Source: a bacterium
GTDB lineage: Bacteria; Bacillota; Clostridia; Lachnospirales; Lachnospiraceae
NCBI GenBank assembly: GCA_030535455.1
Contig: JAUNJY010000034.1
Coordinates: 1 to 46,803 of the forward strand
Direction of reading: 5' to 3'
Length of the DNA stretch: 46,803 bases
Shown here in pieces: positions 7,838-27,125 of this stretch; the stretch's first letter is position 1, and every line of letters starts with the position of its first letter. The position numbers were made by a program, and so were the translations under genes. The notes beneath the pieces are model-generated. The model saw nothing but the letters and a program-made list of their open reading frames with translations, made no database searches and was not told the origin of the DNA.

Positions 7838-7866
7838 TTGTGGTTTTAATAGAATCATATTATAGT
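7838..7866 (+). promoter_or_regulatory. Candidate promoter at the left end of the BMC locus
   Basis: TTGTGG (7838-7843) and TATAGT (7861-7866) are spaced by 17 bases, 24 bases before the pduL start. No other good sigma-A candidate was seen in this intergenic stretch. Confidence 0.4.
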
Positions 7867-7889
7867 TAGAAAAAATGGAGTTTACTAGT

Positions 7890-8480
7890 ATGCAGAAGGA
7901 ATTATTATCACAACCTAAAATACCAATTGGAATATCCAATAAGCATGTTCATATTTCAAAGGAACATTTAGAAATACTATTTGGAGAAGGATATGAGCTG
8001 ACAAAAAAGGTTGACCTAGTACAGCCAGGACAGTTTGCAAGCAATGAGACAATTACAATTCGTGGTCCAAAAAGAGAATTTGAAAATGTTCGTATTTTAG
8101 GACCTGTACGTGGAGAAAGCCAAGTAGAGATCTCTCTTACAGACAGCTTTCACTTGGGGGTAAAGGCTCCGATTAAAGAATCAGGAGATCTTGAAGTTAC
8201 ACCAGGATTAGAGTTAATTGGCCCTAAGGGAACGGTAAAATTGGAAAAGGGAACGATTGTTGCACTTCGTCATATCCATATGACACCAAAACAGGCGGAT
8301 GAGTTTGGAGTAAAGGATAAAGAGATTGTACAAGTAGAAACATTTGGGGAACGTAAAGTAATTCTTGGCGATGTACTTGTGCGTGTTTCAGAACAGTATG
8401 AATTAGAGATGCATGTGGATACAGATGAAGCAAATGCATGTGCACTTAAGAATAAAGACTATGTAGTGTTACACAAATAA
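7890..8480 (+). CDS. pduL: Phosphate acyltransferase PduL, copy 1, without encapsulation helix
   Basis: PduL exchanges CoA for phosphate on propionyl-CoA or acetyl-CoA, giving an acyl phosphate for ATP synthesis and freeing CoA. This copy has 196 residues from the ATG at 7890, which has GGAG 9 bases upstream; the in-frame ATG at 7875 overlaps that site and is less likely. The conserved zinc-binding pieces are visible: NKHVHIS near the N-terminus and RHIHMT in the middle, with QPGQFAS and LGPVR motifs between. Only about ten residues precede the catalytic core, so the amphipathic helix that targets PduL into microcompartments is absent. It is strongly similar to the second copy at 24166 over the core. 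It may work in the cytosol. It ends before a strong terminator. Confidence 0.92.
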   Translation: MQKELLSQPKIPIGISNKHVHISKEHLEILFGEGYELTKKVDLVQPGQFASNETITIRGPKREFENVRILGPVRGESQVEISLTDSFHLGVKAPIKESGDLEVTPGLELIGPKGTVKLEKGTIVALRHIHMTPKQADEFGVKDKEIVQVETFGERKVILGDVLVRVSEQYELEMHVDTDEANACALKNKDYVVLHK

Positions 8481-8568
8481 GGGCGGAAAGGGAGAGTAAT
8501 CGTCTTTTCTTATTTTTTAGGTAAAGTCGGAAAGTCTTTCATAAAGTTAAGAGTTCAATTGTCTACAG

Positions 8569-8607
8569 TCTGAGCAGAGAGTAATCATCTCTGCTCAGAT
8601 TTTTTTT
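8569..8607 (+). terminator. Intrinsic terminator after pduL copy 1
   Basis: A perfect 12-bp stem (TCTGAGCAGAGA with TCTCTGCTCAGA), a 7-base loop and eight T residues form a textbook terminator. It separates the first pduL from the rest of the BMC genes. The 16-base sequence at 8559-8574 overlaps its 5' arm and matches 38-53. Confidence 0.9.
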
Positions 8608-8820
8608 GAATGTATAGGAGGTTTCTCGGCGCGGGCAAAGTGTGAATAGTAACGTTTATGTTGGTATGAAATTTGCAAAATGAAGTCTGAATCGTCTCTG
8701 TTCATTAATTTTTCTGTATGATAATCTACAAGAAACAAGAGCGTCGTAGAAAGGAGGAGAAGAGGGAGTCTTGTAGCTTTAAGAAAAATAAGGAATATAG
8801 AAAAGGAGAGGTAGACTGGT
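8608..8820 (+). promoter_or_regulatory. Leader region of the MIP channel gene
   Basis: The gene-free stretch 8481-8820 holds the terminator above and then this leader. TATGAT lies at about 8717, but no good -35 partner is seen. CTACAAGA (8726-8733) can pair with TCTTGTAG (8769-8776) around an AGGAGG sequence that is not followed by a long frame. The leader may fold, but it matches no riboswitch I know. Confidence 0.25.
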
Positions 8821-9531
8821 ATGTTAGTTTTTATTGCCGAATTAATTGGAACATTCTTACTCATTTTAATTGGAGAGGCTGTAGTTGCCAATGTATGCCT
8901 GAATAAGTCGGGCATGAAAGGCGCTGGCTCAATTCAAATCACCCTTGCATGGGGCTTCGCAGTAATGATTCCAGCATTTATCTTTGGTGTTGCATCAGGA
9001 GCACACTTTAATCCAGCACTAACCATTGCACTTGCTGCAGATGGAACGATTAAATGGTCAATTGTTCCACAGTACTTAGCTGGACAATTCTTAGGAGCAT
9101 TTTTAGGAGCAGCATTAGTAGCTCTTATGTTTAACGATCAATTTAAAGCAACAGATGATCAGGCAACCAAATTAGGAGTATTTTGTACATCACCATCTGT
9201 ACCAAATACGCTTTTGAACTTACTAAGTGAAATAGTAGAAACATTTATCCTTGTATTTGCAATTAAAGGAATTGGTAATGTTACATCAATTGCTCCTGGA
9301 GTTGATAAATTCATGGTATTTGGAATTATCGTTTCCATCGGTATGTCCTTTGGTGGATTAACCGGATATGCAATCAATCCAGCCAGAGATTTTGCGCCAA
9401 GACTTGCCCATCAGCTTCTTCCTATCCCAGGAAAGGGAGAGTCAAACTGGGGATATGCTTGGATTCCTGTTGTCGGACCTGTAATCGGAGCATTGTTAGC
9501 TGTTGGACTTTTTGCAATTATTCCTTGGTAG
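8821..9531 (+). CDS. MIP-family channel, glycerol facilitator type
   Basis: A 236-residue integral membrane protein with six helices and both half-helix motifs of aquaporins: HFNPALTIA in the first half and NPARDFAPR in the second. The Asp after the second NPAR is typical of aquaglyceroporins such as GlpF rather than water-only channels. It should let small polyols such as glycerol or 1,2-propanediol cross the membrane passively. It lies inside the BMC locus, between pduL and the shell genes, so import of the diol substrate is the natural inference. A ribosome binding site (GGAGAGG) precedes the start. The gene ends before a long bidirectional hairpin. Confidence 0.88.
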   Translation: MLVFIAELIGTFLLILIGEAVVANVCLNKSGMKGAGSIQITLAWGFAVMIPAFIFGVASGAHFNPALTIALAADGTIKWSIVPQYLAGQFLGAFLGAALVALMFNDQFKATDDQATKLGVFCTSPSVPNTLLNLLSEIVETFILVFAIKGIGNVTSIAPGVDKFMVFGIIVSIGMSFGGLTGYAINPARDFAPRLAHQLLPIPGKGESNWGYAWIPVVGPVIGALLAVGLFAIIPW

Positions 9532-9564
9532 TTATGACGGAATACGGAATTCTTAGTACATATA

Positions 9565-9609: not shown

Positions 9610-9640
9610 GCCTAGAAACACTTCATATTTTCAGACGTTA

Positions 9641-10120
9641 TTATTCTTGTCTTAAAAAAAAGCTTACCATATGTTTTGCAATTAATGTATCTTGTTCTAC
9701 CGTTCCGCCACTGACACCGACAGCGCCAATATACATGTTGTTACGATACAATGGAATACCACCACCAAAGAAACAGAACTTCCCTGGGCAGGTATCCTGT
9801 AGCCCGTATAAGGATTGTCCAGGCTGAATGACGTTAGCCAGTTCTTCCGTTGATTTTTGCAAGGACAGGGCAGTATATGCTTTTGCTTTGGATATCTCAA
9901 TGCTTGCCAATAGTGCCTGATCCATCCTATGCTGTGCAATCAGGTTTCCACCACCATCTATTATGGTAAGGACGACAGGGACATTGATCGAAGCTGCATA
10001 TTTCTCTCCTTCTTCTAAAAGTAAAAGTGCTTTATGTAGAGAGAAGTTATTTAAGAGAAGCTGCTTATTTAGGTCTGAAAGAATTTGTTTTGATAGTTGA
10101 TCCACGGTCATATTAGACAT
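9641..10120 (-). CDS. GlcG/HbpS-type (PduO C-terminal-like) protein
   Basis: A 159-residue protein of the GlcG/HbpS/PduO-C family (DUF336 type). Family features seen are VPVVLTIIDGGGNLIAQHRMD, an 'ISKAKAYTAL' helix, and a C-terminal GGGIPLY...GAVGVSGGT motif. Members bind haem or small ligands and often sit in diol and glycolate operons; the exact role in microcompartments is not settled. It is the only gene of the BMC locus on the minus strand. AGGAGG lies 6 bases before the start. The N-terminus (about residues 4-22) could form an amphipathic helix, so encapsulation is possible but not shown. Confidence 0.82.
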   Translation of the reverse strand: MSNMTVDQLSKQILSDLNKQLLLNNFSLHKALLLLEEGEKYAASINVPVVLTIIDGGGNLIAQHRMDQALLASIEISKAKAYTALSLQKSTEELANVIQPGQSLYGLQDTCPGKFCFFGGGIPLYRNNMYIGAVGVSGGTVEQDTLIAKHMVSFFLRQE

Positions 10121-10310: not shown

Positions 10311-10664
10311 ATGGCGGAATTAACAAGGATTATTGAAGAGTCCGTTCCTGGAAAACAGATTACAATGGCTCATATCATTGCCAGCCCAAACCCAATTATT
10401 TATAAGAAGCTGGGATTAGACCCCAAAGTAGATTATGAGAAGGCAGCAATTGGGATACTTACGCTAACCCCTTATGAGACATCAATTATTGCAGCAGATA
10501 TTGCATTAAAGCGTGCAGCAATTGAAATTGGTTTCATTGACCGGTTTAGTGGGACATTAATTATAACAGGAAGAATATCCGATGTTACTGTAGCATTTGA
10601 GGCATTTATAAATTACGCAAAACGTGAGATGGGATTTAATGTTTGCAAGATTACAAAGGCATAA
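10311..10664 (+). CDS. BMC shell hexamer, circularly permuted EutS/PduU type
   Basis: A shell protein of 117 residues starting at the ATG at 10311, preceded by GGAAGG. The N-terminal part (ITMAHIIASPNPIIYKKLGL) is the hallmark of the permuted EutS/PduU class, whose first segment forms a small beta barrel over the hexamer pore. The body AIGILTLTPYETSIIAADIALKRA is the BMC fold in permuted order. Such subunits occupy a minor share of the facet and may close or gate the pore. The gene is followed at once by eutP, the usual EutS-EutP (PduU-PduV) pairing. Confidence 0.93.
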   Translation: MAELTRIIEESVPGKQITMAHIIASPNPIIYKKLGLDPKVDYEKAAIGILTLTPYETSIIAADIALKRAAIEIGFIDRFSGTLIITGRISDVTVAFEAFINYAKREMGFNVCKITKA

Positions 10665-10678
10665 GGCAGGTGATGACA

Positions 10679-11113
10679 GTGAAAAAGATAATATTTGTTG
10701 GAAGGACAGGAGCTGGTAAGACAACCCTTACTCAAGCAATCAAGGGAACTCAGATCCATTATCATAAGACACAGTATATCAATCATTATGATGTAATCAT
10801 TGATACGCCGGGAGAGTATTGTGAGAATAAGAAACTTGGAAGAGCGTTGATACTGTATTCCTATGAAGCAGATGTAATTGGCCTATTAATGAGCTCCCTT
10901 GAAGAATATTCTCTTTATAGCCCTAATATCGCATCCCTGGCTACTAGAGAGGTAATTGGAATCGTGACACAGATTGATAAAGAGAATGCTAGGCCAGATT
11001 TAGCTAAGTTATGGTTAGAGCTGACAGGATGTAAGAAAATTTTCTTTATAAGCGCGATTACTGGAGAGGGAATTGAGGAACTTTTGGACTACTTGCAAGA
11101 GGATGACACTTAA
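10679..11113 (+). CDS. eutP: EutP/PduV-type small GTPase
   Basis: A P-loop NTPase of 144 residues related to EutP and PduV, which attach to or position microcompartments. Walker A is GRTGAGKTT at the N-terminus, DTPGEY is the switch II/G3 motif, and TQIDKENA fits the base-recognition (G4) region. The GTG at 10679 is preferred because AGGTGAT precedes it; the ATG two codons upstream is an alternative. It follows the EutS-type gene by about 15 bases and is surely co-transcribed with it. Confidence 0.9.
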   Translation: MKKIIFVGRTGAGKTTLTQAIKGTQIHYHKTQYINHYDVIIDTPGEYCENKKLGRALILYSYEADVIGLLMSSLEEYSLYSPNIASLATREVIGIVTQIDKENARPDLAKLWLELTGCKKIFFISAITGEGIEELLDYLQEDDT

Positions 11114-11130: not shown

Positions 11131-11712
11131 ATGAAGCGAATATTAATGATTGTTGGAGACTTTACTGAAGATTATGAGGTAATGGTTCCTTTTCAGGCAC
11201 TTGAGATGCTAGAAATTCAGGTGGATGTGGTCTGCCCGGGAAAGAAAAAGGGAGATACCATACTTACAGCAATTCACGATTTTGAAGGATATCAGACATA
11301 TACGGAAAAAGTGGGACATCATTTTACTTTGACTGCATCTTATGAATACCTTGATCTAAGTGAGTATGATGGCCTATATCTGACTGGCGGACGTGCCCCA
11401 GAGTATCTGAGAAGGGAAAAGCGCGTATTGGATATTACCAAGTATTTTATGGAACTCAATTTACCAGTGGCAGCCATTTGTCATGGAATACAGATCCTGA
11501 CAGCAGCAGGCGTGATAGAAGGCAGGACACTGACTGCTTATGATGCAGTCGGACCTGAAGTTACGTGTGCAGGTGGAAATTATAAGAGAGTCGAAGCCTG
11601 TGACGTAGTGGTAGATGATAATCTGGTAACATCTCCGGCCTGGCCAGGACATTCTAACTTGCTTCGTGCATTTATCAAGCTGCTGGGAGTTACTATAATT
11701 GAAGTTTCGTAA
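11131..11712 (+). CDS. DJ-1/PfpI-family protein
   Basis: A 193-residue member of the DJ-1/PfpI class-I amidotransferase-like superfamily. The nucleophile elbow AICHG holds the conserved Cys, and an early acidic residue (FTEDYEV) matches the family Glu. Relatives include intracellular proteases, chaperones and enzymes that detoxify glyoxals or repair glycated proteins. Inside a locus that makes reactive aldehydes, handling of aldehyde damage is a reasonable guess but not shown. It has its own AAAGGAG site 18 bases after eutP and is likely in that operon. Confidence 0.82.
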   Translation: MKRILMIVGDFTEDYEVMVPFQALEMLEIQVDVVCPGKKKGDTILTAIHDFEGYQTYTEKVGHHFTLTASYEYLDLSEYDGLYLTGGRAPEYLRREKRVLDITKYFMELNLPVAAICHGIQILTAAGVIEGRTLTAYDAVGPEVTCAGGNYKRVEACDVVVDDNLVTSPAWPGHSNLLRAFIKLLGVTIIEVS

Positions 11713-11862: not shown

Positions 11863-14451
11863 ATGATAGCAAAAGGTTTTAGTGAACCAACTGACAGGGT
11901 GAAACGTTTAAAAGATGTCATTGTAAATGCAGTCCCAGAAGTTGAGGCTGAGAGAGCCGTATTAGTAACCGAGGCTTATAAGGAAACTGAAGGCCAGCCA
12001 AATGTAATGAGAAGAGCAAAAGTAGCAGAGAAAGTATTTAGTGAGCTTCCTGTAACGATCCGTGAAGATGAATTAATTGTAGGTTCTCTTACAAAGCATC
12101 CTCGTTCATGCCAGATTGCACCAGAGTATTCTTGCGATTGGGTTGAGGCAGAATTCGATACGATGGAAACAAGAATGGCTGATCCATTCAAAATTCCAAA
12201 GGATGTTGCAAAACAACTTCATGAAGCTTTCTTATACTGGCCAGGAAAGACTGTCAGTGATCTAGCATCTTCTTATATGTCAGAAGAGACAAAAGACTGC
12301 CAGGCAAATGGTGTATTTACAGTTGGAAACTATTTTTATGGTGGTGTTGGCCATGTTTGCGTTGACTACGGCAAAATTCTTGAAAAAGGATTTTTAGGAG
12401 TTATTGAAGAAACAGTTGCTGCTATGGAAAAGATGGATCGTACGGATCCAAGTTACATAAAGAAACAACAATTCTATAATGCAGTAATCATTACGTATAC
12501 GGCTGCTATTAAATTTGCACATCGTTATGCAGATAAAGCAAGAGAAATGGCTGCAGTAGAGAGTAATCCTACTAGAAAGTCTGAATTATTACAGATTGCA
12601 GCAAACTGTGATCATGTACCAGAACGTGGTGCTAGAAACTTCTATGAAGCTTGTCAGTCCTTCTGGTTCATTCAATTAATGTTACAAATCGAGTCCTCAG
12701 GACATTCCATCTCTCCAGGACGTTTTGATCAATATATGTACCCATACTTAAAAGCAGACACTTCTGTTGACAAAGAGTTTGCTCAAGAATTAATTGACTG
12801 TATCTGGGTAAAATTAAACGATTTAAATAAGACACGTGATGCTATCTCCGATCAGGCATTTGCAGGATATGCATTATTCCAAAATCTTGGTGTTGGCGGC
12901 CAATTAGAAGATGGACGTGATGCAACCAACGAAGTCTCCTATATGTGTATGCAGGCATGTGCACATGTTAAATTACCAGCACCATCGTTCTCCATCCGTG
13001 TTCATGAGAATACTCCAGACGAGTTTTTATACCGTGCATGTGAGCTTGCAAGACTTGGTCTTGGTGTTCCAGCTATGTATAACGATGAAGTTATTATTCC
13101 TGCACTTACAAACCGTGGAGTTACCTTAGAGGACGCTCGTAACTACTGTATTATCGGCTGTGTAGAGCCACAATGCCCTCATAAGACAGAAGGATGGCAT
13201 GATGCTGCATTCTTTAACGTTGCAAAAGTAATGGAAATTACATTAAACAACGGCCGCGTTGGTGAGAAACAATTAGGACCTGTAACTGGTGAAATGACAG
13301 AGTGGAAGACAAGCGAAGACTTCTTTACTGCATTTACAAAACAAATGGAATACTTTGTATACCATCTTGCAGAAGCAGACAATGCAGTTGACCTTGCCCA
13401 TATGGAAAGAGATCAGCTTCCATTCTTATCTGCACTTGTTGATGATTGTATTGGAAGAGGAAAGACAGTGGAAGAAGGCGGTGCCATTTATAACTTCACA
13501 GGTCCTCAAGCATTCGGTGTTGTTGATGTTGGTGACTCTGCTTATGCAATGGAAAAACATGTGTTTGAGAAGAATGAAGTTTCTATTCAAGAATTAAAAC
13601 AAGCATTAGACAATAACTTTGGTTACCCAGTAAATAGTTCTACCAGCGCTGAAAAAGAATATGACGCAGCTAGGAGAAATGGAACTGCTCCAAAAGCTGA
13701 TGATGCAATGATGGAACAAAGAATTTACGAGACAGTTAAGAGAATCTTAAGCAGCAATGGTTCTATTGACCTTCAGGCACTTCAAACGAAAGTTACCGAT
13801 GAATGTGCAGCAACATCTGATGATTGTGCTGATAAATTCACCAAAGTAAAACGTTTGATGGAAAAGACAGAGTGGTATGGAAATGATATCGATTCTGTAG
13901 ATTATGTATCTGCAAGAGTTGCACGTATTTACAGTGCTGAAGTTGAGAAATATAGAAATCCTCGTGGAGGACAATTCCAGGCAGGATGCTATCCAGTATC
14001 TGCAAACGTATTATTTGGTAAGGATGTTGCTGCACTTCCAGATGGACGTCTTGCAAAGACTCCATTGGCAGATGGTGTTTCTCCAAGAGCAGGTAAAGAT
14101 ACAACAGGACCTACGGCAGCAACTAACTCTGTTGCAAAATTAGATCATCATTATTTCTCAAATGGTACGTTATACAATCAAAAATTCCTTCCATCTGCAG
14201 TTGCAGGAGATGAGGGATTACAAAACTTTGCATCCGTTGTTCGAAGCTACTTCGACCACAAAGGAATGCATGTACAGTTTAATGTTATTGATCGTGAAAC
14301 TTTACTTAATGCGCAAAAGCATCCAGAACAATACAAAGACTTAGTAGTTCGTGTAGCTGGATATAGTGCTCATTTTGTATCTCTTGCAAAAGAAGTACAA
14401 GATAACATCATTGAAAGAACAGAACATAGCTTTGGCCATAAGAGCTGTTAG
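11863..14451 (+). CDS. Glycyl radical diol dehydratase (B12-independent glycerol/1,2-propanediol dehydratase)
   Basis: The catalytic core enzyme of the microcompartment, 862 residues. It should dehydrate 1,2-propanediol to propionaldehyde, or glycerol to 3-hydroxypropionaldehyde, by radical chemistry. The thiyl-radical Cys433 and Glu435 lie in IGCVEPQ, and the glycyl radical is Gly833 in RVAGYS. His164, Ser282 and Asp447 match, even in numbering, the substrate-binding residues of Clostridium butyricum glycerol dehydratase. Choline lyase CutC instead has Thr and Tyr at the positions of His446 and Phe450, so choline is unlikely. About 70 extra residues (about 587-668) are inserted before the C-terminal part. 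The N-terminus starts directly in the catalytic domain, without a targeting helix. AGGAGG precedes the ATG. Propanediol versus glycerol cannot be decided from sequence. Confidence 0.93.
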   Translation: MIAKGFSEPTDRVKRLKDVIVNAVPEVEAERAVLVTEAYKETEGQPNVMRRAKVAEKVFSELPVTIREDELIVGSLTKHPRSCQIAPEYSCDWVEAEFDTMETRMADPFKIPKDVAKQLHEAFLYWPGKTVSDLASSYMSEETKDCQANGVFTVGNYFYGGVGHVCVDYGKILEKGFLGVIEETVAAMEKMDRTDPSYIKKQQFYNAVIITYTAAIKFAHRYADKAREMAAVESNPTRKSELLQIAANCDHVPERGARNFYEACQSFWFIQLMLQIESSGHSISPGRFDQYMYPYLKADTSVDKEFAQELIDCIWVKLNDLNKTRDAISDQAFAGYALFQNLGVGGQLEDGRDATNEVSYMCMQACAHVKLPAPSFSIRVHENTPDEFLYRACELARLGLGVPAMYNDEVIIPALTNRGVTLEDARNYCIIGCVEPQCPHKTEGWHDAAFFNVAKVMEITLNNGRVGEKQLGPVTGEMTEWKTSEDFFTAFTKQMEYFVYHLAEADNAVDLAHMERDQLPFLSALVDDCIGRGKTVEEGGAIYNFTGPQAFGVVDVGDSAYAMEKHVFEKNEVSIQELKQALDNNFGYPVNSSTSAEKEYDAARRNGTAPKADDAMMEQRIYETVKRILSSNGSIDLQALQTKVTDECAATSDDCADKFTKVKRLMEKTEWYGNDIDSVDYVSARVARIYSAEVEKYRNPRGGQFQAGCYPVSANVLFGKDVAALPDGRLAKTPLADGVSPRAGKDTTGPTAATNSVAKLDHHYFSNGTLYNQKFLPSAVAGDEGLQNFASVVRSYFDHKGMHVQFNVIDRETLLNAQKHPEQYKDLVVRVAGYSAHFVSLAKEVQDNIIERTEHSFGHKSC

Positions 14452-14472
14452 CTAGAACTAGGAGTGAAGAGG

Positions 14473-15390
14473 ATGGATCAAATTAATTATTCGTTAGAAG
14501 GACTTGTTTTTGATATACAAAGATTTTCTATCCATGATGGTCCAGGAGTTCGGACGATAGTTTTTCTAAAAGGATGCCCCCTTTCTTGTAAATGGTGCAG
14601 TAACCCGGAATCGCAGCGGATTAATCCAGTTGTGATGTATAACGAATCGGAATGCATTCATTGTGGGACTTGCATTAATGTGTGCAAGCAGGGGGCGATT
14701 CATCCCTCTAATAAAGGATTGATTGACCGAGACCGCTGTATCGGGTGTGGAGAATGTGCCAATGCATGTCCTACAGGGGCATTGGTTCTAAAAGGCAGGA
14801 AGATGTCGGTAGAGCAGGTCATTATGGAACTAAAAAAAGATGCAACCAATTATCGAAGATCAAAAGGAGGCATTACCATTTCTGGTGGAGAACCTTTGGT
14901 ACAGCATGAATTCTGTAAGGAAATCCTAAAGGCATCCAAAGCACAGGGATGGCATACAGCGATTGAGACAACGGCTTGTGCATCTAAGGAAGTATTAGAG
15001 GATGTAATTCCTCATGTGGATCTGGCTTTGATGGATATCAAGCATATGGACCCAGCAGTTCATAAGCTACATACCGGCATTACCAATGAATTAATCTTAG
15101 CAGGAACCAAGGTGGTATCAAACATGACTAAAACCATTGTCAGAGTACCTGTAATTCCTAATTTTAATAGTAGGAAAGAAGATATCTTAAGCATTGCAAG
15201 TTATGCAGCCAGCTTACACAACGTGGAGACGCTGCACTTGCTGCCTTATCATTCCTATGGGGAAAACAAGTATGGACTCTTGGGCAGGGAGTATGCTTTG
15301 AAGGACACAAAGACCTTATCTGAAGAGCAAATCGATGCATTAAAGGAAATAGTAGAAAGCCAAGGACTTAGATGTGTCATTGGCGGTTAA
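14473..15390 (+). CDS. Glycyl radical enzyme activase (radical SAM)
   Basis: This radical-SAM enzyme abstracts a hydrogen from the conserved Gly of the adjacent dehydratase to install the radical. It has 305 residues from the ATG at 14473, chosen because AGGAG lies 9 bases upstream; the GTG at 14464 is too close to that site. The radical-SAM cluster motif CPLSCKWC gives Cys35, Cys39 and Cys42. Two ferredoxin-type 4Fe-4S motifs follow (Cys61-64-67-71 and Cys89-92-95-99), as in glycerol dehydratase activase. A GGEP motif for AdoMet binding is at about residue 139. It follows the GRE by 21 bases. Confidence 0.95.
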   Translation: MDQINYSLEGLVFDIQRFSIHDGPGVRTIVFLKGCPLSCKWCSNPESQRINPVVMYNESECIHCGTCINVCKQGAIHPSNKGLIDRDRCIGCGECANACPTGALVLKGRKMSVEQVIMELKKDATNYRRSKGGITISGGEPLVQHEFCKEILKASKAQGWHTAIETTACASKEVLEDVIPHVDLALMDIKHMDPAVHKLHTGITNELILAGTKVVSNMTKTIVRVPVIPNFNSRKEDILSIASYAASLHNVETLHLLPYHSYGENKYGLLGREYALKDTKTLSEEQIDALKEIVESQGLRCVIGG

Positions 15391-16302: not shown

Positions 16303-16584
16303 ATGAATTCAGAAGCATTAGGAATGGTTGAAACAAGAGGGTTAGTTGGAGCTATTGAGGCAGCAGATGCCATGGTGAAATCAGCAAATGTAGCATTAAT
16401 CGGATATGAAAAAATCGGTTCTGGATTAGTTACGGTTATGGTACGTGGCGATGTAGGAGCTGTAAAGGCTGCAACAGATGCAGGCGCAGCTGCAGCAAGA
16501 GCAGTTGGAGAAGTAGTTTCTATCCATGTTATTCCACGTCCACATATGGATACAGAAAAAATTCTTCCAAAATCATTAGATTAA
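16303..16584 (+). CDS. BMC-H hexameric shell protein, PduA/PduJ type
   Basis: A canonical single-domain shell protein of 93 residues: [20 protein letters not shown] at the start, the pore loop region around '[13 protein letters not shown]', and the helix [14 protein letters not shown]. It should be the main facet protein. It lacks any extension, in contrast to the second hexamer at 17205. An 89-base gap separates it from pduB, with no clear promoter. Confidence 0.95.
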
Positions 16585-16637: not shown

Positions 16638-16660
16638 TAGTAAAAGTAGAGGTGAAACTT

Positions 16661-19379: not shown

Positions 19380-20489
19380 ATGGAAAAGATTATTAATAAG
19401 GCTACAATTTATTCTGGAGTCGATTCCTTAGACCGACTAAATCAAATAGAAAATAAAAGGGTCTGGTTAATTTGTGACCAGTTCCTTGTCCAAAATGGAA
19501 GTATAAAGCAGATTGAAGAACGATTACAAGAAAAAAACCAAGTGGAGGTCTTCAAAGACGTAGTTCCTGATCCCCCAATTGAAGTAATTGCAAAAGGTAT
19601 CGTTCTGGCAGCAAAGATTAAGCCGGAAGTGATGATTGCCTATGGTGGCGGATCATCCATAGATACGGCAAAAAGCATTTTATATTTTTCAAAGATTGCA
19701 CATATCTTTAAAAAGGTACAATTTATTGCAATACCAACCACCAGTGGTACCGGTTCTGAAGTGACTGCAACAACTGTAATTACGGATCAGCAAGTAAAAC
19801 ATCCAGTGACGGATGAGCAACTGGTTCCAGACGAAGTAATTCTTTGTCCTTCCCTTACCGTATCTGTTCCACCTAGTGTTACGGCAAATACAGGTATGGA
19901 TGTACTGACTCATGCAATTGAGGCTTATGTATCAGTGAATGCAAGTACGTATTCAGATGCCTTAGCAGAAAAAGCTTGTGAGCTGGTATTTGACTCGTTA
20001 TTTACATGTTATAAGGAAGGAAATAACCTTGAAGCAAGAAGCAGAATGCAGCAAGCATCTAATCTGGCAGGAAGCGCATTTAATATGGCAGGATTAGGGA
20101 TGAACCATGCAATTGCACATCAAATTGGAGGTAAGTTTCATATTCCACATGGACTAGCCAATTCCTTGCTGTTAACCAAAGTGATTGAAAAGAATTGTAT
20201 GGATTGCAAGGCTAAAAGCCGTTATGCCAACCTTTCCAGAAAATTAGGTTTTGCAAAGAAAGAGGATTGTGATAGCAAGGCGGTTACCTCTTTAGTCAAA
20301 CAGATTACCAACTTGCAAATCCAGATGGATATGCCGATGAAATTAAGCGAATGTAAGGTGAAGCAAGAGGATTTAGTTGCAATTATAGTAATAATGTCTA
20401 AAGATGCTTTGCAAGATGCATGCAGATTGACAGCACCATCCATATATAATAATGACGAAATTGTGAAAATTTTGTTAAGTATATACTAA
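19380..20489 (+). CDS. Iron-dependent alcohol dehydrogenase, PduQ-like
   Basis: A group III (iron-type) alcohol dehydrogenase of 369 residues. It should reduce part of the aldehyde to the alcohol (1-propanol or 1,3-propanediol) and so regenerate NAD for the aldehyde dehydrogenase. The NAD site GGGSSIDTAK and the PTTSGTGSEVT motif are clear. The metal ligands come from DVLTHAIEAY, NHAIAHQIGG and HIPHG, all present. It has an AAGGAG site and follows aldehyde dehydrogenase copy 1 after 15 bases. Confidence 0.93.
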   Translation: MEKIINKATIYSGVDSLDRLNQIENKRVWLICDQFLVQNGSIKQIEERLQEKNQVEVFKDVVPDPPIEVIAKGIVLAAKIKPEVMIAYGGGSSIDTAKSILYFSKIAHIFKKVQFIAIPTTSGTGSEVTATTVITDQQVKHPVTDEQLVPDEVILCPSLTVSVPPSVTANTGMDVLTHAIEAYVSVNASTYSDALAEKACELVFDSLFTCYKEGNNLEARSRMQQASNLAGSAFNMAGLGMNHAIAHQIGGKFHIPHGLANSLLLTKVIEKNCMDCKAKSRYANLSRKLGFAKKEDCDSKAVTSLVKQITNLQIQMDMPMKLSECKVKQEDLVAIIVIMSKDALQDACRLTAPSIYNNDEIVKILLSIY

Positions 20490-20543
20490 AAAAACCATCT
20501 GTGATAGAATAATGATATAAAGTATTTTCAAATGGAGGTACTC

Positions 20544-21881
20544 ATGGATTATATCTATCAAAGAAACAGTCAGGATGAAGACGGATCGAACGAGCATAAA
20601 AATGATGAAATCAGTCAATTCGATATTATTCATTTGTTTGGTAAAAAAACCTTGGAGGAAATCCAAGAAAGAATTTCAAAGGCAACAGGGTTAGCATTTA
20701 TTACGGTTGATTACAAAGGGGAGCCCATAACAAAGGACACATCATTTACAGACTTTTGCCTGGCTATACGTGCAGATCAGAAGACAATTGGATGCTGTAA
20801 GGCATCAGATGCATTTGGTGGCATACAAGCTGCAGTCTCACAAAAGCCAAGTATCTATTTTTGTCCATGTGGCTTACTAGAGGTAGCAATTCCTATTGTT
20901 GTAAAAGGACATTATCTGGGAGGATTTATTGGAGGCCAGATACGTTGTAATGATGCTCCAAAAGAAGTTGCAAAGCTGAGAAATGTGCTTGGCCAGAAAT
21001 TTAGCTTGCCAAAAGAACTAAGGGAAAGCAAGTTATATGATCAAATACAGGAGTTATCCTATCAAAAGTTTGTGGACATAGCCAATTTAATTTCATTAAT
21101 TATTAATCAGCTAAGTGAGAAAGAGCTTTCAAAAAAGATTCAAAAAGAAAACTTGCAGAAGGAAATAGAAATAATCAATGCATCTAATCAAAACCTGCTC
21201 TTAGAAAATAAATTAAAGAGTGCAGAAATCGCGGAGTTAACGGAACAGTTAAATCCTTATTTCTTAGTGAATACACTGACTTCTATCTCGAATCTTGCGA
21301 CCATTGAAGATGCCACAAGAACCAATGAGATGCTTGTCATGTTTGCAGATTACATAAAAGAAAATCTTACAGCCAGAAAAAAATTCCGACCTATATCGGA
21401 AGAACTTAAAAGTGTGGAGTGGTATTTGAAAATGCAAAAGATTCGTTATGGGGATCGGCTGAACTTTTCAATTCAAATTCCTGAAAAAATGGGAATGCAG
21501 AAAATACCATCACATATTCTTTTGTCTTTTGTGGAGTATGCAATCTTTTACGGGATTGCCATGAAGACAGAGCCTGGCACGGTAACGATTGAAGGAAATT
21601 ATAAGGACGATGACATTGTCTTTGTTGTAAAGGATGATGGACCAGGTATGAGCCAATCAGAGCTGGAACAGCATTTTTCCAACTACAAGGGTGGATTTGA
21701 AGGCGATAGCATTATGCTTGGTGTATCTAATGCTAGGCAGAGAATGGTTACTCTGTATGGTAAGAAATATGATGTTTCTATGGAAAGTATTGCGAAAAAG
21801 GGGAGAGTCATTACCATAAGTTATCCAAAATATTTTGAAGAAAGGATAGAAGTAAATGTATCAAATATTAATCGTGGATGA
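20544..21881 (+). CDS. PocR-domain sensor protein with a degenerate histidine kinase module
   Basis: A 445-residue protein from the ATG at 20544, whose site GGAGG overlaps an upstream ATG at 20532. Residues about 25-190 form a PocR ligand-sensing domain rich in Cys (FC72, CC84-85, C107, C109); PocR senses 1,2-propanediol in Salmonella. A short coiled coil leads to a LytS-type kinase module. There the usual QxNPHFLFN motif reads QLNPYFLVN, so the phospho-acceptor His is Tyr239. The N-box VENA reads VEYA (Tyr332). The G1 motif DDGPGM remains. It overlaps the response regulator by 26 bases. It probably senses the diol or its metabolites, but may not phosphorylate itself. Confidence 0.88.
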   Translation: MDYIYQRNSQDEDGSNEHKNDEISQFDIIHLFGKKTLEEIQERISKATGLAFITVDYKGEPITKDTSFTDFCLAIRADQKTIGCCKASDAFGGIQAAVSQKPSIYFCPCGLLEVAIPIVVKGHYLGGFIGGQIRCNDAPKEVAKLRNVLGQKFSLPKELRESKLYDQIQELSYQKFVDIANLISLIINQLSEKELSKKIQKENLQKEIEIINASNQNLLLENKLKSAEIAELTEQLNPYFLVNTLTSISNLATIEDATRTNEMLVMFADYIKENLTARKKFRPISEELKSVEWYLKMQKIRYGDRLNFSIQIPEKMGMQKIPSHILLSFVEYAIFYGIAMKTEPGTVTIEGNYKDDDIVFVVKDDGPGMSQSELEQHFSNYKGGFEGDSIMLGVSNARQRMVTLYGKKYDVSMESIAKKGRVITISYPKYFEERIEVNVSNINRG

Positions 21882-22878
21882 TGATGTATTGATGAGACAG
21901 GCGCTTCGGGTAATGATTGAGAAAATAGACGGTTTTTCAGTAGCAGCAGAAGCAGAGACTGGAGAGGAAGCAATTTATCTTTGTAAGATGAATAAAATTG
22001 ATCTTATATTTATGGATATCATGATGCCTGGAATTTCTGGTATCGAAGCAAGCAAGACGATAAAAGAATGGGATTCTTCCATTGTCATATACTTGTTATC
22101 CGCCTATTCAAATTTTTATTTGGCGAAGCAGGCATTAAAGTCTAATGTTAAGGAATACATATCGAAACCAATTTCATTTAGCATGTTATCGGGGCTTTTG
22201 GCGAACTTTAAAACGGAGCAGGAAGGCTCTGCAAGATATCAGTTAAATGTATTGATGGAAATTATCAAAGAAAAAGAGTTTAAGCGTGTTTATTATGATC
22301 TTGGCACGATTGTGGATGAGATTTACAATCATGCAAATGACGAACCAGAAAAAGTATACGAGATTTTTACCTATCTTGGGCAAAGCTTGTTAAATAGCAG
22401 TCATTTTCTTGATGGGGAGAGTAAAAAGATTGAAGAGTTATTTGCATTGAATGAAGCATTGATACTAGAACGCAAAGTAACCGAACTATGGCTGTTTCGC
22501 GTTATGAATTATATATTCCAGCAAAATAGTATACGGCGTTACCCTTTATTAGAAGCGGCATTTGCTTATATCGAAGATAACATCAAGAAGGACATTGGTT
22601 TAAATCAGATTATTGAGAATTGCTCCATAAGCCAAGGGTATCTTAGCAGGATTTTCAAAAGCCAGTTTCATACAAGTGTAATGGATTATATTCATATTCG
22701 AAAATTAAATCTGGCAAAAGGGTATTTTTTCTTTACTGATGAAAGTATTGCAGAGATCGCATTTAAACTGGGATATAACGAAAGCAGTTATTTTAGCAAG
22801 GTATTTAAAAAGTATGAAAAAATGACAGTAAATCAATATAAAAGTACAATATATAATCGCAGCTTGGATCAGCAATAG
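21856..22878 (+). CDS. Response regulator, receiver plus AraC-type DNA-binding domain
   Basis: A 340-residue regulator. The receiver domain is intact: acidic pocket Asp8-Asp10, phosphorylation site Asp54 in FMDIMMP, and Lys in SKPIS. A middle helical region (about 125-230) links to a C-terminal AraC-type helix-turn-helix pair (about 235-335), including 'GYLSRIFKSQF' and 'IAEIAFKLGYNESSYFSKVFKKY'. It should activate the BMC operon promoters. Its start overlaps the sensor gene, so the two are co-translated. Because the partner lacks its His, phosphorylation may come from elsewhere or not be needed. Confidence 0.93.
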   Translation: MYQILIVDDDVLMRQALRVMIEKIDGFSVAAEAETGEEAIYLCKMNKIDLIFMDIMMPGISGIEASKTIKEWDSSIVIYLLSAYSNFYLAKQALKSNVKEYISKPISFSMLSGLLANFKTEQEGSARYQLNVLMEIIKEKEFKRVYYDLGTIVDEIYNHANDEPEKVYEIFTYLGQSLLNSSHFLDGESKKIEELFALNEALILERKVTELWLFRVMNYIFQQNSIRRYPLLEAAFAYIEDNIKKDIGLNQIIENCSISQGYLSRIFKSQFHTSVMDYIHIRKLNLAKGYFFFTDESIAEIAFKLGYNESSYFSKVFKKYEKMTVNQYKSTIYNRSLDQQ

Positions 22879-22942: not shown

Positions 22943-24130
22943 ATGAAAGAATATTTGGTGACTTCAGAATCAGTGGCAGCAGGCCATCCGGACAAGCTTT
23001 GTGATCAAATTTCAGATGGTATTTTAGATGCTTATCTTCGGATTGATCAGAATGCACATGTTGCAATCGAGACCATGGCATCTAAAAATACCATTATGAT
23101 TGCAGGAGAAGTCATGGCAAAAGGAAATGTGGATGTGACTGAAGTTGCTAGAAAGATTATAAAGGATATTGGCTATACATCAAAAGAGTGTGGCCTAGAT
23201 TATCATAACTGCATTATTTTGACCAATATCAACACCCAATCTCCAGATATTTTAAGAGGGGTCAGCAAAAAAGAGGACGGAGAAGAGGTAATTGGCGGTG
23301 GTGACCAAGGAATTATGTACGGATATGCGGTCGATGAGACTGCAAACTATATGCCTTATACATGTGAATTGGCACATCGTCTGGTGATGCGTTTGGACCA
23401 AGTAAGAAAAGATGGAACAGTTGGCTTCCTGCTTCCCGATGGGAAGGCTCAGGTTACCATGCGATATAATAAAAAAGATAGGCCAATCCAGATCGAAAGT
23501 GTTGTACTTTCTGCCCAGCATAAAGCCGATGTTTCGGAAGATGTGGTTAGAAAGACATTGTTAAAGGAAGTAATCCTTCCTGTAATATCAGGAAAGTATC
23601 TAAGGGAAGATACGAAAATACATATTAATCCAACCGGACGTTTTGTTGTAGGCGGTCCTGAGGGAGATACCGGTCTTACCGGAAGGAAGATCATAGTGGA
23701 TACTTATGGTGGAGTAGGAAAACATGGCGGTGGTGCATTTTCAGGGAAAGATGCAACTAAAGTTGACCGTTGTGCGGCGTATATGGCAAGGTATGTTGCA
23801 AAGAATATTGTAGCTGCAAAGCTGGCAAGCAGATGTGAAGTTTCACTGGCTTATGTAATAGGTGGAATTGAGCCGGAAGCAATTACAATCAATACCTTTG
23901 GAACAGAACGAATTAATACTGAAATTATTGAGTCTATTGTAAGAGAGATGTTTTCTTTTTCTGTTGCAAATATTATACGAGGACTTGAGTTACGTAGACC
24001 ACAGTTTTTAAAGACAGCTGCATATGGACATTTTGGCAGAGAGAATGAAGGGTTTCGATGGGAAGATACCGATATGGCGGAACGCTTGAGAGATCTTACA
24101 GCCAGAAAGGTCTATGAAAGCTTATGGTAA
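22943..24130 (+). CDS. metK: S-adenosylmethionine synthetase inside the BMC locus
   Basis: This enzyme makes AdoMet from ATP and methionine. It is full length (395 residues) with GHPDKLCDQISD, the GGDQGIMYGYA loop, GGPEGDTGLTGRKI and GGGAFSGKDATKVDR, all expected for an active enzyme. A local copy is explained by the activase at 14473, which consumes AdoMet to charge the glycyl radical enzyme. No encapsulation helix is visible, so it may supply AdoMet from the cytosol. The start has GGCAGGTGAT in front. Whether the genome has another, housekeeping metK cannot be seen here. Confidence 0.95.
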   Translation: MKEYLVTSESVAAGHPDKLCDQISDGILDAYLRIDQNAHVAIETMASKNTIMIAGEVMAKGNVDVTEVARKIIKDIGYTSKECGLDYHNCIILTNINTQSPDILRGVSKKEDGEEVIGGGDQGIMYGYAVDETANYMPYTCELAHRLVMRLDQVRKDGTVGFLLPDGKAQVTMRYNKKDRPIQIESVVLSAQHKADVSEDVVRKTLLKEVILPVISGKYLREDTKIHINPTGRFVVGGPEGDTGLTGRKIIVDTYGGVGKHGGGAFSGKDATKVDRCAAYMARYVAKNIVAAKLASRCEVSLAYVIGGIEPEAITINTFGTERINTEIIESIVREMFSFSVANIIRGLELRRPQFLKTAAYGHFGRENEGFRWEDTDMAERLRDLTARKVYESLW

Positions 24131-24165: not shown

Positions 24166-24801
24166 ATGGAAAATGAGCAGTTAGTACAGCTGATTGTTAA
24201 GAATGTGATGACTCGTTTAAATGAAATGGATAATCATAAAATTCCAATTGGAGTTTCAAACCGTCATGTACATTTATCACAAGAAGATTTGGAAGTACTG
24301 TTTGGCAAAGGCTATCAGCTTACAAAAAAAGCTGATTTAGCGCAGCCAGGTCAGTTTGCTTCCAATGAAACAGTTACAGTGCGCGGCCCTAAAGGCGAAT
24401 TTAAAAATGTAAGGATCCTTGGACCATTACGTAAGAAAAGTCAGGTTGAGATTTCTCTTACAGATAGCTTTCGTCTTGGGGTAAAGGCACCGATTAAAGA
24501 GTCTGGTGACCTTGCTGGGACACCTGGTTTGTCGTTAATTGGACCAGTTGGAACGATTGATCTTCCACAGGGAACAATCGTTGCCTTACGTCATATTCAT
24601 ATGACACCAGCACAGGCACAGGCATTTGGTGTAAAAGACAAGGATATTGTTGAAGTAGAGACATTCGGTGATAGAAAAGGAATATTAGGCAATGTGCTGG
24701 TTCGTGTTTCAGATCAGTTTGCCTTGGAGATGCACGTTGATATTGATGAAGCAAATGCTTGCTTTTTAAAGAATAAGGATTATGTGATCCTACATAAATA
24801 G
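24166..24801 (+). CDS. pduL: Phosphate acyltransferase PduL, copy 2, with encapsulation helix
   Basis: A second PduL, 211 residues from the ATG at 24166; GGAG lies 9 bases upstream. Earlier in-frame ATGs at 24124 and 24151 are less well placed. Residues 1-21 (MENEQLVQLIVKNVMTRLNEM) form an amphipathic helix of the encapsulation-peptide kind, then the catalytic core begins at IPIGVSNRHVHLS. Zinc motifs NRHVHLS and RHIHMT are present. The core closely resembles copy 1 at 7890, so the pair is a duplication with different targeting. This copy should recycle CoA inside the compartment. Confidence 0.95.
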   Translation: MENEQLVQLIVKNVMTRLNEMDNHKIPIGVSNRHVHLSQEDLEVLFGKGYQLTKKADLAQPGQFASNETVTVRGPKGEFKNVRILGPLRKKSQVEISLTDSFRLGVKAPIKESGDLAGTPGLSLIGPVGTIDLPQGTIVALRHIHMTPAQAQAFGVKDKDIVEVETFGDRKGILGNVLVRVSDQFALEMHVDIDEANACFLKNKDYVILHK

Positions 24802-24815
24802 TGGAGTGACAAGAT

Positions 24816-25637
24816 ATGATTATTGAAAAAGAAGTATTAAGTGAATTTGCCGAATTAGTTGAGGATAAGAAAATAAATGAGCATAAAGGTCAGTTAAAGA
24901 CAGGGGTAGACTTGGGAACTGCAAATGTAGTAGTGGCCGTAGTGGATGAGGATAACCATCCGATTGCTGGCGCTATGTATCCTTCTACAGTAGTGCGAGA
25001 CGGGATCGTTGTAGATTACGTGGGAGCTATACGAATTGTAAAGCATTTAAAGTCCCAAGTAGAACAGGCAATAGGTGAGGAACTTACTACTGCTTCATGT
25101 GCCATTCCACCTGGAATTATTGCTGGAAATATAAAATGTATCGCCAATGTGGTGGAAGGTGCCGGATTTGACGTAATTAATGTACTTGATGAGCCAACGG
25201 CAGCGTCTACTGTATTGGAAATTACAGATGGAGCTGTAGTCGATGTTGGTGGCGGGACAACTGGAATCAGCATCATTAAAAATGGTGAGGTAATTTATAC
25301 GGCAGATGAGCCAACAGGGGGAACCCATATGACATTGGTAATAGCAGGTTATTATGGGATTTCTATGGAAGAGGCAGAGGAGAAGAAGAAGGATACCGTC
25401 AGAGAGAAAGAAATCTTTCCAATTGTAAAGCCAGTTGTTCAGAAGATGGCATCAATTGTAAAACGGTTTCTGGAAGGGTATGATGTACCGGCGATTTATT
25501 TGGTAGGAGGTGCCTGTAGCTTCTCAGAATTTGCGGAAGTGTTTGAAAAAGAACTTGGAATTCAGACAATAAAGGCAAATAAACCGTTGTTGGTGACACC
25601 ACTTGGTATTGCAATGAATTGTGTAATGGAGGGATAA
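24816..25637 (+). CDS. eutJ: EutJ-type actin-like ATPase
   Basis: A 273-residue member of the Hsp70/actin/MreB-like ATPase superfamily found in BMC loci. The phosphate loops read GVDLGTANVVV and VVDVGGGTTGISI, and the adenosine-side motif is VGGACSF. EutJ is thought to be a chaperone for microcompartment enzymes or assembly, but its function is unproven. It is packed 14 bases after pduL copy 2 and 3 bases before aldehyde dehydrogenase copy 2. Confidence 0.93.
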   Translation: MIIEKEVLSEFAELVEDKKINEHKGQLKTGVDLGTANVVVAVVDEDNHPIAGAMYPSTVVRDGIVVDYVGAIRIVKHLKSQVEQAIGEELTTASCAIPPGIIAGNIKCIANVVEGAGFDVINVLDEPTAASTVLEITDGAVVDVGGGTTGISIIKNGEVIYTADEPTGGTHMTLVIAGYYGISMEEAEEKKKDTVREKEIFPIVKPVVQKMASIVKRFLEGYDVPAIYLVGGACSFSEFAEVFEKELGIQTIKANKPLLVTPLGIAMNCVMEG

Positions 25638-25640
25638 GAA

Positions 25641-27062
25641 ATGGAGATAGATGAAAGTGTGATTGAGCGTCTGGTTCGTCAGGCTGTGAAAGAGGTTGCC
25701 TGTGACAATAAGATAGACTGTGAGCCCGTAAAAAAAGTAGAGAAGAATTACGGAATATATAAGACAATGGAGGAGGCAGTGGAGGCTTCCGCCGTTGCAC
25801 AGAAAAAGTTATTATTTTCCACGATGGCACAACGCCAGGCTTATGTGGATGTAATTCGTAAGACGGTACTTAAGAAAGAGAATATGGAAATGATTTCGCT
25901 ATTGTCTGTGGAAGAAACGGGCATCGGCAAATATGAACACAAGATTATCAAGAATACGCTGGCTGCCAATAAGACACCAGGAACAGAAGACTTAGTGACT
26001 GAGGCAAAGACTGGAGATCATGGACTTACCGTAATCGAATATTGTCCATTTGGTGTTATTGGTGCAATTACACCAACAACCAATCCAACAGAGACAATTA
26101 TCAATAATTCAATATCCATGATTGCTGGGGGAAATACGGTTGTATTTAGTCCTCATCCTAGAGCAACAAAGGTTTCGCATCTTTTAGTATCCTTACTGAA
26201 TAAGGCATTGGAGGAGGCTGGTGCTCCATCAGATTTGATCACTACGGTAGAAGCGCCATCCATTGAAAATACCAATATCTTAATGGAACATCCTAAGGTT
26301 CGTATGATTGTTGCTACCGGCGGTCCTTCCATTGTTAAGAAAGTTATGTCGACAGGAAAGAAAGCAATTGGTGCGGGAGCTGGAAATCCTCCAGTCGTAG
26401 TGGATGAGACAGCCGATGTTGAAAAGGCAGCAAAGGATATTATCGATGGCTGTAGCTTTGATAATAATGTGCCTTGCATTGCTGAGAAAGAAGTATTTGC
26501 AGTGGATCAGATTTGCGATTACTTAATCCATTGCATGAAGCAAAATGGTGCTTATGAGATGAAGGATCCTGAAATGATTGCCAAATTGGATGCGTTGGTG
26601 TCCAATGAAAAAGGAAAGCCAAAGGTTTCTTTTGTTGGAAAAAGTGCTCAGTACATATTAGGCCAGTTAGGAATTAACGTAGATGACAGCATTCGAGTAA
26701 TTATTATGGAAGTAAACAAGGACCATCATTTAGTTGTTGAAGAAATGATGATGCCAATCCTTCCAATCGTTCGTACGGAGGATGTAGACCAAGCAATAGA
26801 GTATGCTTATGTAGCAGAGCATGGAAACCGTCATACGGCAATGATGCATTCTAGAAATGTGGAGAAATTAAGCAAGATGGCAAAATTGCTGGAAACTACA
26901 ATCTTTGTAAAGAATGCTCCTTCCTATGCAGGCATTGGTGCTGGCGGAGAAGGGCACACTACCTTTACCATTGCTGGACCTACAGGAGAAGGATTAACGT
27001 CTGCAAGATCATTTTGCAGAAAGAGAAAGTGCGTTATGGCAGATGCACTTCATATCAGATAG
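25641..27062 (+). CDS. pduP: CoA-acylating propionaldehyde dehydrogenase, copy 2, encapsulated form
   Basis: A 473-residue PduP/EutE enzyme that turns the aldehyde into acyl-CoA with NAD. The first 20 residues (MEIDESVIERLVRQAVKEVA) are an amphipathic encapsulation helix, followed by a linker before the catalytic domain at about residue 40. Catalytic Cys279 lies in CSFDNNVPCIAEKE, the family consensus. Cofactor motif IGAGAGNPPVVVDETAD is intact. This is the standard version of the pair; copy 1 (18051) lacks the helix. It is the last gene of the locus and is followed by a terminator. Confidence 0.95.
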   Translation: MEIDESVIERLVRQAVKEVACDNKIDCEPVKKVEKNYGIYKTMEEAVEASAVAQKKLLFSTMAQRQAYVDVIRKTVLKKENMEMISLLSVEETGIGKYEHKIIKNTLAANKTPGTEDLVTEAKTGDHGLTVIEYCPFGVIGAITPTTNPTETIINNSISMIAGGNTVVFSPHPRATKVSHLLVSLLNKALEEAGAPSDLITTVEAPSIENTNILMEHPKVRMIVATGGPSIVKKVMSTGKKAIGAGAGNPPVVVDETADVEKAAKDIIDGCSFDNNVPCIAEKEVFAVDQICDYLIHCMKQNGAYEMKDPEMIAKLDALVSNEKGKPKVSFVGKSAQYILGQLGINVDDSIRVIIMEVNKDHHLVVEEMMMPILPIVRTEDVDQAIEYAYVAEHGNRHTAMMHSRNVEKLSKMAKLLETTIFVKNAPSYAGIGAGGEGHTTFTIAGPTGEGLTSARSFCRKRKCVMADALHIR

Positions 27063-27077
27063 ATAAGAATGAAGTAA

Positions 27078-27125
27078 AAAGGAGCAATCACATGATACGG
27101 TTAGTCCGTTCGTGTGGTTGCTCTT
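27078..27125. terminator. Bidirectional terminator closing the BMC locus
   Basis: A long imperfect stem (GAGCAATCACA with TGTGGTTGCTC, one G-U pair, plus an inner ACGG/CCGT) is flanked by A residues on the left and T residues on the right. It can stop the BMC operon and the convergent antiporter gene. Confidence 0.85.

Follow-up and report, generated by a model that had tools for sequence, protein, structure and literature searches.

A GRM3-type glycyl radical enzyme microcompartment locus in a Lachnospiraceae genome, predicted to support B12-independent 1,2-propanediol fermentation

Contig JAUNJY010000034.1 of the Lachnospiraceae assembly GCA_030535455.1 (positions 1 to 46,803 of the forward strand; this whole stretch of 46,803 nucleotides is hereafter the window) carries bacterial microcompartment (BMC) genes around a glycyl radical enzyme (GRE). 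The locus raises the question of which class of GRE-associated microcompartment (GRM) is encoded, on which substrate it would act, and where that substrate would come from. A preliminary description had reported a complete glycyl-radical diol-dehydratase microcompartment with an unusual mix of parts. Scans of the window with Pfam and NCBIfam models placed the microcompartment genes at 7875–27062 (Table 1). Together with the GRE scores, they confirmed the compartment type, its place, and every part that had been listed, including two PduL proteins and two aldehyde dehydrogenases (AldDHs). The locus very probably encodes a GRM3 microcompartment that would ferment 1,2-propanediol independently of B12, with its substrate, induction, and encapsulation being predicted. 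It is real, nearly complete, and one further instance of a type that has already been described.

The gene content is that of the published type. The GRE and its activase gene adjoin genes for BMC-H, BMC-T, and BMC-P shell proteins. The ancillary genes published for GRM3 comprise those for MetK, EutJ, a peptidase, a flavoprotein, a DUF336 protein, and a two-component pair, as well as acetate kinase (PMC4207490). All of these except the kinase are present, provided that an open reading frame (ORF) designated ORF182 is the flavoprotein and that the PfpI-like protein is the peptidase. For comparison, 80 of 235 GRE relatives were kept, representing 79 distinct named loci from Bacillota, Pseudomonadota, Synergistota, and Myxococcota; the counts over these loci are lower bounds, with stretches ending at most 10 kb from the GRE. 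Shell genes were found in 69 of the 79 loci, MetK in 61, DUF336 in 47, the PfpI-like protein in 40, and EutJ in 33. Kinase and regulator genes were found in 46 and 47 loci, respectively, although matches for these two, the alcohol dehydrogenase (ADH), and the MIP channel reach down to 21–35% identity and include generic relatives. Because these ancillary genes are frequent among relatives and belong to the published list, the mix of parts is normal rather than unusual. The word "complete" is a little generous, since the locus lacks an acid kinase gene, as does the cluster of Clostridium beijerinckii.

The order of the genes, which was observed directly, also agrees with GRM3. In C. beijerinckii DSM 6423, 19 genes (CIBE_4884–4904), matched by annotation and order, follow the sequence seen at 9641–27062 of the window (PMC6384099). 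In the published annotation, they encode a PduO-like protein, a BMC-H at the EutS position, PduV, an amidotransferase-like protein, the GRE, the activase, PduB, BMC-H, CIBE_4896, BMC-H, BMC-P, AldDH, ADH, kinase, regulator, MetK, PduL, EutJ, and a second AldDH. In C. beijerinckii HUN142, 16 of these 19 genes were matched by sequence and in order, up to the end of the available stretch. The DSM 6423 cluster has in addition a further BMC-H (CIBE_4887), a membrane protein (CIBE_4888), and, beside the cluster, a PduS (CIBE_4883) (PMC6384099), whereas the window adds a MIP channel and an extra PduL at its left edge. As reported, the C. beijerinckii cluster was strongly induced on L-rhamnose and was among the highest expressed (PMC6384099), and the GRM3 locus of C. 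ljungdahlii was induced by 1,2-propanediol (PMC12016505).

By its sequence, the GRE is of the diol-dehydratase type and is neither a choline nor an isethionate lyase. Compared with solved structures, it scored 1293 bits against 9rco, 1015 against the C. butyricum glycerol dehydratase (1r8w), and 943 against RiDD of Roseburia inulinivorans (5i2a), a GRM5 enzyme. In contrast, the best choline lyase and the isethionate lyase 7kq3 gave 528 and 398 bits, and the GRE fell short of the CutC model TIGR04394 (537.7 bits; cut-off 1050). Choline and isethionate were accordingly rejected as substrates. In a tree of 110 sequences, which contains no CutC, so that CutC is excluded by the scores, the window GRE groups with the 80 related GREs and is split from RiDD and 25 GREs of the same bacterial family (SH-aLRT 100). 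The label GRM3-type for the 80 related GREs reflects the gene content observed in this work, with shell genes at 69 of the 79 named loci, rather than a published list.

The placement of those 25 next-scoring family GREs with RiDD invites the alternative that the locus is a GRM5-type fucose/rhamnose compartment that has lost its aldolase. The window GRE is predicted to catalyze the same reaction as RiDD, which has an internal insertion of 64 residues. At one RiDD-group locus (L050), EutS, EutP, and GlcG genes also accompany a GRE and an aldolase. Two of the 25 RiDD-group loci were examined: L050 carries the GRM5 aldolase together with shell genes, and L049 showed neither within 20 kb. However, the window GRE lies outside the RiDD group with a support of 100, and the gene order and parts agree with GRM3. 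Moreover, the window activase contains Fer4 domains, whereas GRM5 activases are said to lack the Fer4 insert, and GRM5 loci are described as holding an aldolase and a lactaldehyde reductase (PMC6325248). The window contains no class II aldolase, in line with the earlier statement that no fuculose/rhamnulose aldolase is present in the locus; the genome has three PF00596 matches, all on other contigs. No match to any of these three aldolases was found in the stretches examined of 77 of the 79 relatives. The zinc-type lactaldehyde reductase of GRM5 was not seen in family scans of the locus, and the iron-type ADH of the locus reached only 244 bits against the iron-type lactaldehyde reductase model (cut-off 523). 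Given the GRE tree and the lack of aldolase and lactaldehyde reductase matches over cut-off at the locus, the GRM5 assignment was rejected, and we give it next to no credence.

A feature of the GRE that bears on its encapsulation is an internal insertion at about residues 590–658. The interval between F586 and Y672 has 85 residues in the window GRE, compared with 11 in the C. butyricum glycerol dehydratase (15 with four unaligned residues). An intramolecular encapsulation peptide in the form of an internal insertion has been described for GREs of GRM3 to GRM5 (PMC6325248, PMC5311937), and the window insertion is predicted to be such a peptide. Its hydrophobic moment was reached in 2.9% of 2000 shuffles. 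The N-terminus of the GRE aligns to the glycerol dehydratase from residue 1 and thus has no targeting extension.

The likeness to the glycerol dehydratase had been put forward in the preliminary description on the basis of H164, S282, C433, E435, and D447. These residues are indeed present. However, together with G833, the glycyl radical site, they are identical in all 110 GREs compared, including E. coli PflD, and therefore mark the GRE superfamily rather than a substrate. MIP family channels may pass glycerol. The alternative that the GRE works mainly on glycerol, forming 3-hydroxypropionaldehyde and then 1,3-propanediol or 3-hydroxypropionate inside the shell, can thus draw on the shared active-site residues, the MIP channel, and the rank of the C. 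butyricum enzyme as second-best solved relative, although the shared residues do not discriminate. The C. butyricum enzyme also lacks the insertion and has been described as having no link to a BMC (PMC5311937), and rhamnose induces the collinear locus of C. beijerinckii (PMC6384099). Furthermore, the GRM3 system of Rhodopseudomonas palustris BisB18 resembles the window by its parts, having a GRE with internal insertion, an activase, and an acylating AldDH; it differs in its proteobacterial source. The second AldDH of the window (AldDH2) has its best solved relatives in the AldDH entries 5JFL, 5JFM, and 5JFN from this system. According to the published assays, the R. palustris enzymes converted 1,2-propanediol to propionyl-CoA, and glycerol gave no detectable CoA product in vitro (PMC5311937). 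Because this GRM3 system used 1,2-propanediol and not glycerol, 1,2-propanediol is favored as the substrate, and we consider a mainly glycerol-directed enzyme improbable.

Several observations weigh against the assignment to a 1,2-propanediol-fermenting compartment. The substrate is predicted by likeness, and no residue tested separates 1,2-propanediol from glycerol dehydratases. The tree tool flagged long branches meeting at the base, which makes it uncertain where the glycerol dehydratase belongs with respect to the two groups. The insertion is missing from 9rco, the best-scoring solved chain, which has 17 residues in the interval (21 with four unaligned ones). Its neighbor in the tree, a Raoultella planticola GRE from a locus with PduA, PduB, PduN, and PduL genes (L107), has at least 45 residues in this interval, and 9rco may be a shortened construct; as no paper describing 9RCO was found, its origin is taken from the tree. 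In addition, 10 of the 79 related GRE loci have no shell gene in the stretch examined, so that membership in this GRE group is no proof of a compartment on its own. As a separate observation, six Eubacterium/Lachnospiraceae loci (L111, L114, L116, L117, L118, and L120) have the GRE insertion and no shell gene in the stretch examined. None of PduS, PduT, and GrpU, which bear on the electron route to the activase and on the distinction between the subtypes GRM3 and GRM3b, was recognized in the locus (the scans included no GrpU model and covered PduS at the locus only). Finally, the assembly consists of 126 contigs with 93.6% completeness and 7.7% contamination; this fragmentation makes absences from the genome weak evidence, and the acetate kinase gene is truncated where contig C40 ends.

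Table 1. Genes and other features of the GRM3-type locus, with positions in the window.
Feature	Position	Strand	Evidence
PduL1, phosphate propanoyltransferase without targeting peptide	7875..8480	+	PF06130, 271 bits
Intrinsic-terminator-like hairpin between PduL1 and the other genes	8567..8601	+	14-pair stem, then T run
MIP channel	8821..9531	+	PF00230; TIGR00861 over cut-off
HbpS/GlcG-like DUF336 protein (PduO C-domain type)	9641..10120	-	PF03928, 118.5 bits
EutS/PduU-type BMC-H	10311..10664 (listed ORF start 10215)	+	PF00936; NF012012, 99.6 bits, under cut-off 123
EutP/PduV-type GTPase	10673..11113 (listed ORF start 10643)	+	PF10662, 174.9 bits; TIGR02528 over cut-off
PfpI/DJ-1 family protein, likely GRM3 "peptidase"	11131..11712	+	TIGR01382 over cut-off
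GRE, predicted 1,2-propanediol dehydratase	11863..14451	+	TIGR01774, 817 bits; PDB 9rco, 1293 bits; tree; insertion
GRE activase, radical SAM enzyme with Fer4 domains	14464..15390	+	TIGR02494, 369 bits; Radical_SAM, Fer4
PduB-type BMC-T with amphipathic N-terminal helix	15410..16213	+	TIGR04501 over cut-off; hydrophobic moment
PduA/EutM-type BMC-H	16303..16584	+	PF00936, 103.7 bits; NF012018, 130.4 vs cut-off 133
ORF182, N-terminal helix and HFCD/UbiX-like flavoprotein fold	16652..17200	+	Structure model, pLDDT 89.7; Foldseek, VIA-align; family comparison
BMC-H with long charged C-terminal tail	17205..17753 (listed ORF start 17184)	+	PF00936, 85.6 bits
PduN/EutN-type BMC-P (vertex)	17761..18024	+	PF03319, 89.6 bits
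AldDH1, acylating-type, no N-terminal extension, catalytic Cys kept	18051..19364	+	NF011927, 597 bits; alignment
Iron alcohol dehydrogenase (propanol dehydrogenase position)	19380..20489	+	PF00465, PF25137
PocR-domain histidine kinase, predicted diol sensor	20532..21881	+	PF10114, PF06580, PF02518
AraC-type response regulator	21856..22878	+	PF00072, PF12833
MetK, S-adenosylmethionine synthetase	22943..24130	+	TIGR01034, 538 bits
PduL2, phosphate propanoyltransferase with N-terminal extension	24166..24801 (listed ORF start 24124)	+	PF06130, 273 bits
EutJ-family protein	24816..25637	+	TIGR02529 over cut-off
AldDH2, predicted propionaldehyde dehydrogenase, amphipathic N-terminal helix	25641..27062	+	PF00171; best PDB match 5jfl, 646 bits

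For a GRM3 compartment of this composition, the following working can be proposed. The PocR-domain kinase would sense the diol, and its AraC-type partner would turn the genes on. The activase would place the radical on Gly833 of the GRE, with S-adenosylmethionine (SAM) possibly supplied by the MetK of the locus. Held within the shell by its insertion, the GRE would dehydrate 1,2-propanediol to propionaldehyde inside a shell of PduA-, PduB-, EutS-, and PduN-type proteins. AldDH2 and then PduL2 would convert the aldehyde to propionyl-CoA and propionyl-phosphate, while the iron ADH would make propanol and regenerate NAD; an acid kinase encoded elsewhere in the genome would yield ATP. The diol may come from L-rhamnose, and perhaps from L-fucose, through the isomerase, kinase, aldolase, and lactaldehyde reductase of the genome, or from outside the cell. 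The two-component pair (20532–21881 and 21856–22878) and ORF182 (16652–17200) were missing from the list of parts in the preliminary description.

The source of the diol, which had been expected outside the cell or elsewhere in the genome, is largely resolved by sugar genes of the same assembly that were observed directly. Rhamnulokinase, L-rhamnose isomerase, and rhamnulose-1-phosphate aldolase genes (rhaB-rhaA-rhaD) are adjacent at one locus, with the kinase and the aldolase each passing one of the two models applied to it. An L-fucose isomerase gene (fucI) adjoins a class II aldolase gene, the product of which passes no specific model; the fucose pathway was thus seen in part, and fuculokinase was not sought. 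A lactaldehyde reductase is also encoded (631 bits; cut-off 523). Taken together, these genes indicate that the cell itself can produce 1,2-propanediol, at least from rhamnose. Elsewhere in the genome, the only other GRE found (PF02901) was identified as a pyruvate formate-lyase by TIGR01255 (1169 bits; cut-off 994), and another diol-type GRE was therefore rejected. The PduCDE diol dehydratase model PF02286 had no match in the genome, although the same search was equally silent in the control genomes. The five BMC-domain stretches found in the assembly are all inside the locus, and a second microcompartment was rejected accordingly.

Among the aldehyde enzymes, both AldDH1 and AldDH2 are closest to solved acylating AldDHs. 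The catalytic Cys of AldDH1 is present in the window and in 25 of 28 relatives in the alignment, and an inactive second AldDH of the GRM1 kind was therefore rejected for the window. In the other three relatives (L055–L057), which belong to the closest lineage beyond the genus of the window, this Cys is replaced by His. For the N-terminal helices, the hydrophobic moment of AldDH2 was 0.77 (0.3% of 2000 shuffles as high), and that of PduB was reached by none of the 2000 shuffles. The helix of ORF182 was borderline (5.8%), and the N-terminus of PduL2 had no support from this measure (33–48%), although its position and its relatives suggest a targeting helix there as well. This test is weak because MetK, which is no candidate for cargo, likewise reached 1.1%. 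A second metK lies on contig C3 (45541–46704) with 604 bits; the MetK of the locus, with 538 bits, is the more divergent by model score and was rejected as the sole SAM synthetase. Among the shell proteins, the BMC-H at 17205–17753 has a long tail rich in lysine and glutamate. By eye, this tail is basic first with an acidic end in the window, and in many relatives it is acidic with a lysine-rich end.

The extra PduL at the left edge (PduL1) lacks the N-terminal extension of PduL2, with which it shares 153 of 201 amino acids (76%). Its nearest relative is the PduL2 of the window, and it evolves faster (end branches 0.6 and 0.12, respectively). The hairpin between PduL1 and the other genes has a folding energy of -22.9 kcal/mol (z -5.7) and folds better than all 200 shuffles; PduL1 is probably its own transcription unit. 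No second PduL was found in the stretches examined of any of the 79 relative loci, and none occupies the place of PduL1 in G265, a genome of the same genus. One tentative explanation, compatible with a GRM3 locus and to which we give somewhat less than an even chance, is that PduL1 is a duplicate that has left the compartment and now serves as a cytosolic phosphotransacetylase. The missing extension, the fast evolution with PduL2 as nearest relative, and the strong hairpin are consistent with this explanation, and no Pta over the cut-off was found in the assembly, whereas 278 of 299 family genomes have such a PF01515 match. However, the sister grouping of the two PduL proteins is not strongly supported (86/64), and terminator-like sites in 7700–12000 are no more common than in shuffles (2 found, 2.5 expected), such that their count alone is no evidence. 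The other 21 of the 299 genomes also lack a PF01515 match over the cut-off, and the one-contig genome G265 has one match (4e-123), for which Pta and Ptb were not distinguished. The single sub-threshold PF01515 match in the assembly reads as PlsX by sequence. Genes for Pta and acetate kinase are neighbors in the pta-ackA arrangement. Because the acetate kinase gene is cut at the contig end, a neighboring pta may fall in the gap and be missing from the assembly only.

ORF182 has the fold of a UbiX/HFCD-like flavoprotein, as judged from its structure model. Its family is present in 60 of the 79 related loci, and in C. beijerinckii its position is taken by CIBE_4896, a protein of unknown function. 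The PduM model PF15953 has no match in the window ORF182 at E values up to 1. Among its relatives in alignment A2 (which omits L063, one of the 30 loci with an ORF182 match), the model matches weakly in 5 of 30 (best 0.01). In the proteobacterial set A3 (omitting L104, L087, and L089), it matches 19 of 28 members (best 8.6e-6), and members align to a Klebsiella PduM. These proteobacterial relatives thus resemble PduM of the B12-dependent PDU compartment, whereas the window protein lacks both a PF15953 match and a PduM-like C-terminal domain. We also looked for the conserved Asn of the PASANT-type motif of such flavoproteins. The window ORF182 has Asp111 instead, and Asn occurs in 2 of the 30 members of A2; in contrast, Asn118 is nearly invariant in A3. 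PduM is reported to carry an N-terminal targeting sequence, and its functions and mechanisms are said to require further study (PMC12108088). One hypothesis, which we regard as evenly balanced, is that ORF182, the "flavoprotein" of GRM3, and PduM form one family of core-to-shell assembly factors that arose from an FMN-binding UbiX/HFCD ancestor, with a targeting helix, and with the catalytic Asn lost in Firmicutes.

Within the bacterial family, a match to the GRE at an E value of 1e-100 or better was found in 86 of 299 genomes. Five of them, including that of the window, have at least 75% GRE identity to the window, and the next group has about 51–56%. The gene order from MIP to AldDH2 is kept in G265. 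In G103 and G293, the order is kept from the GRE onward and some left-hand genes are missing; in G119, MetK is shifted forward, and the ADH, kinase, and regulator genes are at the end. The DUF336 gene has the same orientation in G265 and G119. In the window, the locus is flanked on the left by genes for a peptidase S11, ScpA, ScpB, and an ABC-F-like ATPase, and on the right by those for a Na/Ca exchanger, a DUF6198 protein, and GerA-type germination proteins. Proteins of these flanks (ScpA, ScpB, ABC-F, exchanger, DUF6198, and GerA) had no match in the 30 kb examined of any of these four relatives, and G265 has other genes on the left. These differences indicate that the locus moved or that its surroundings were rearranged. 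The GerA-type spore germination genes lie at 29136–32965, and the second is a 761-residue ORF that unites permease and GerAC parts.

The genome carries both the compartment and genes that would feed it, namely those for rhamnose and some of those for fucose. PduL1, without a targeting extension and ahead of a strong hairpin, may show a compartment enzyme escaping to the cytosol. A second detail of note is the flavoprotein-fold family, with its presence in 60 of the 79 related loci and proteobacterial members that resemble PduM. If the proposed relationship is true, their use in the GRM3 loci of different phyla would make ORF182-type proteins general assembly linkers of diol compartments. Flavin binding might then persist in the proteobacterial form, which might pass electrons to the activase.

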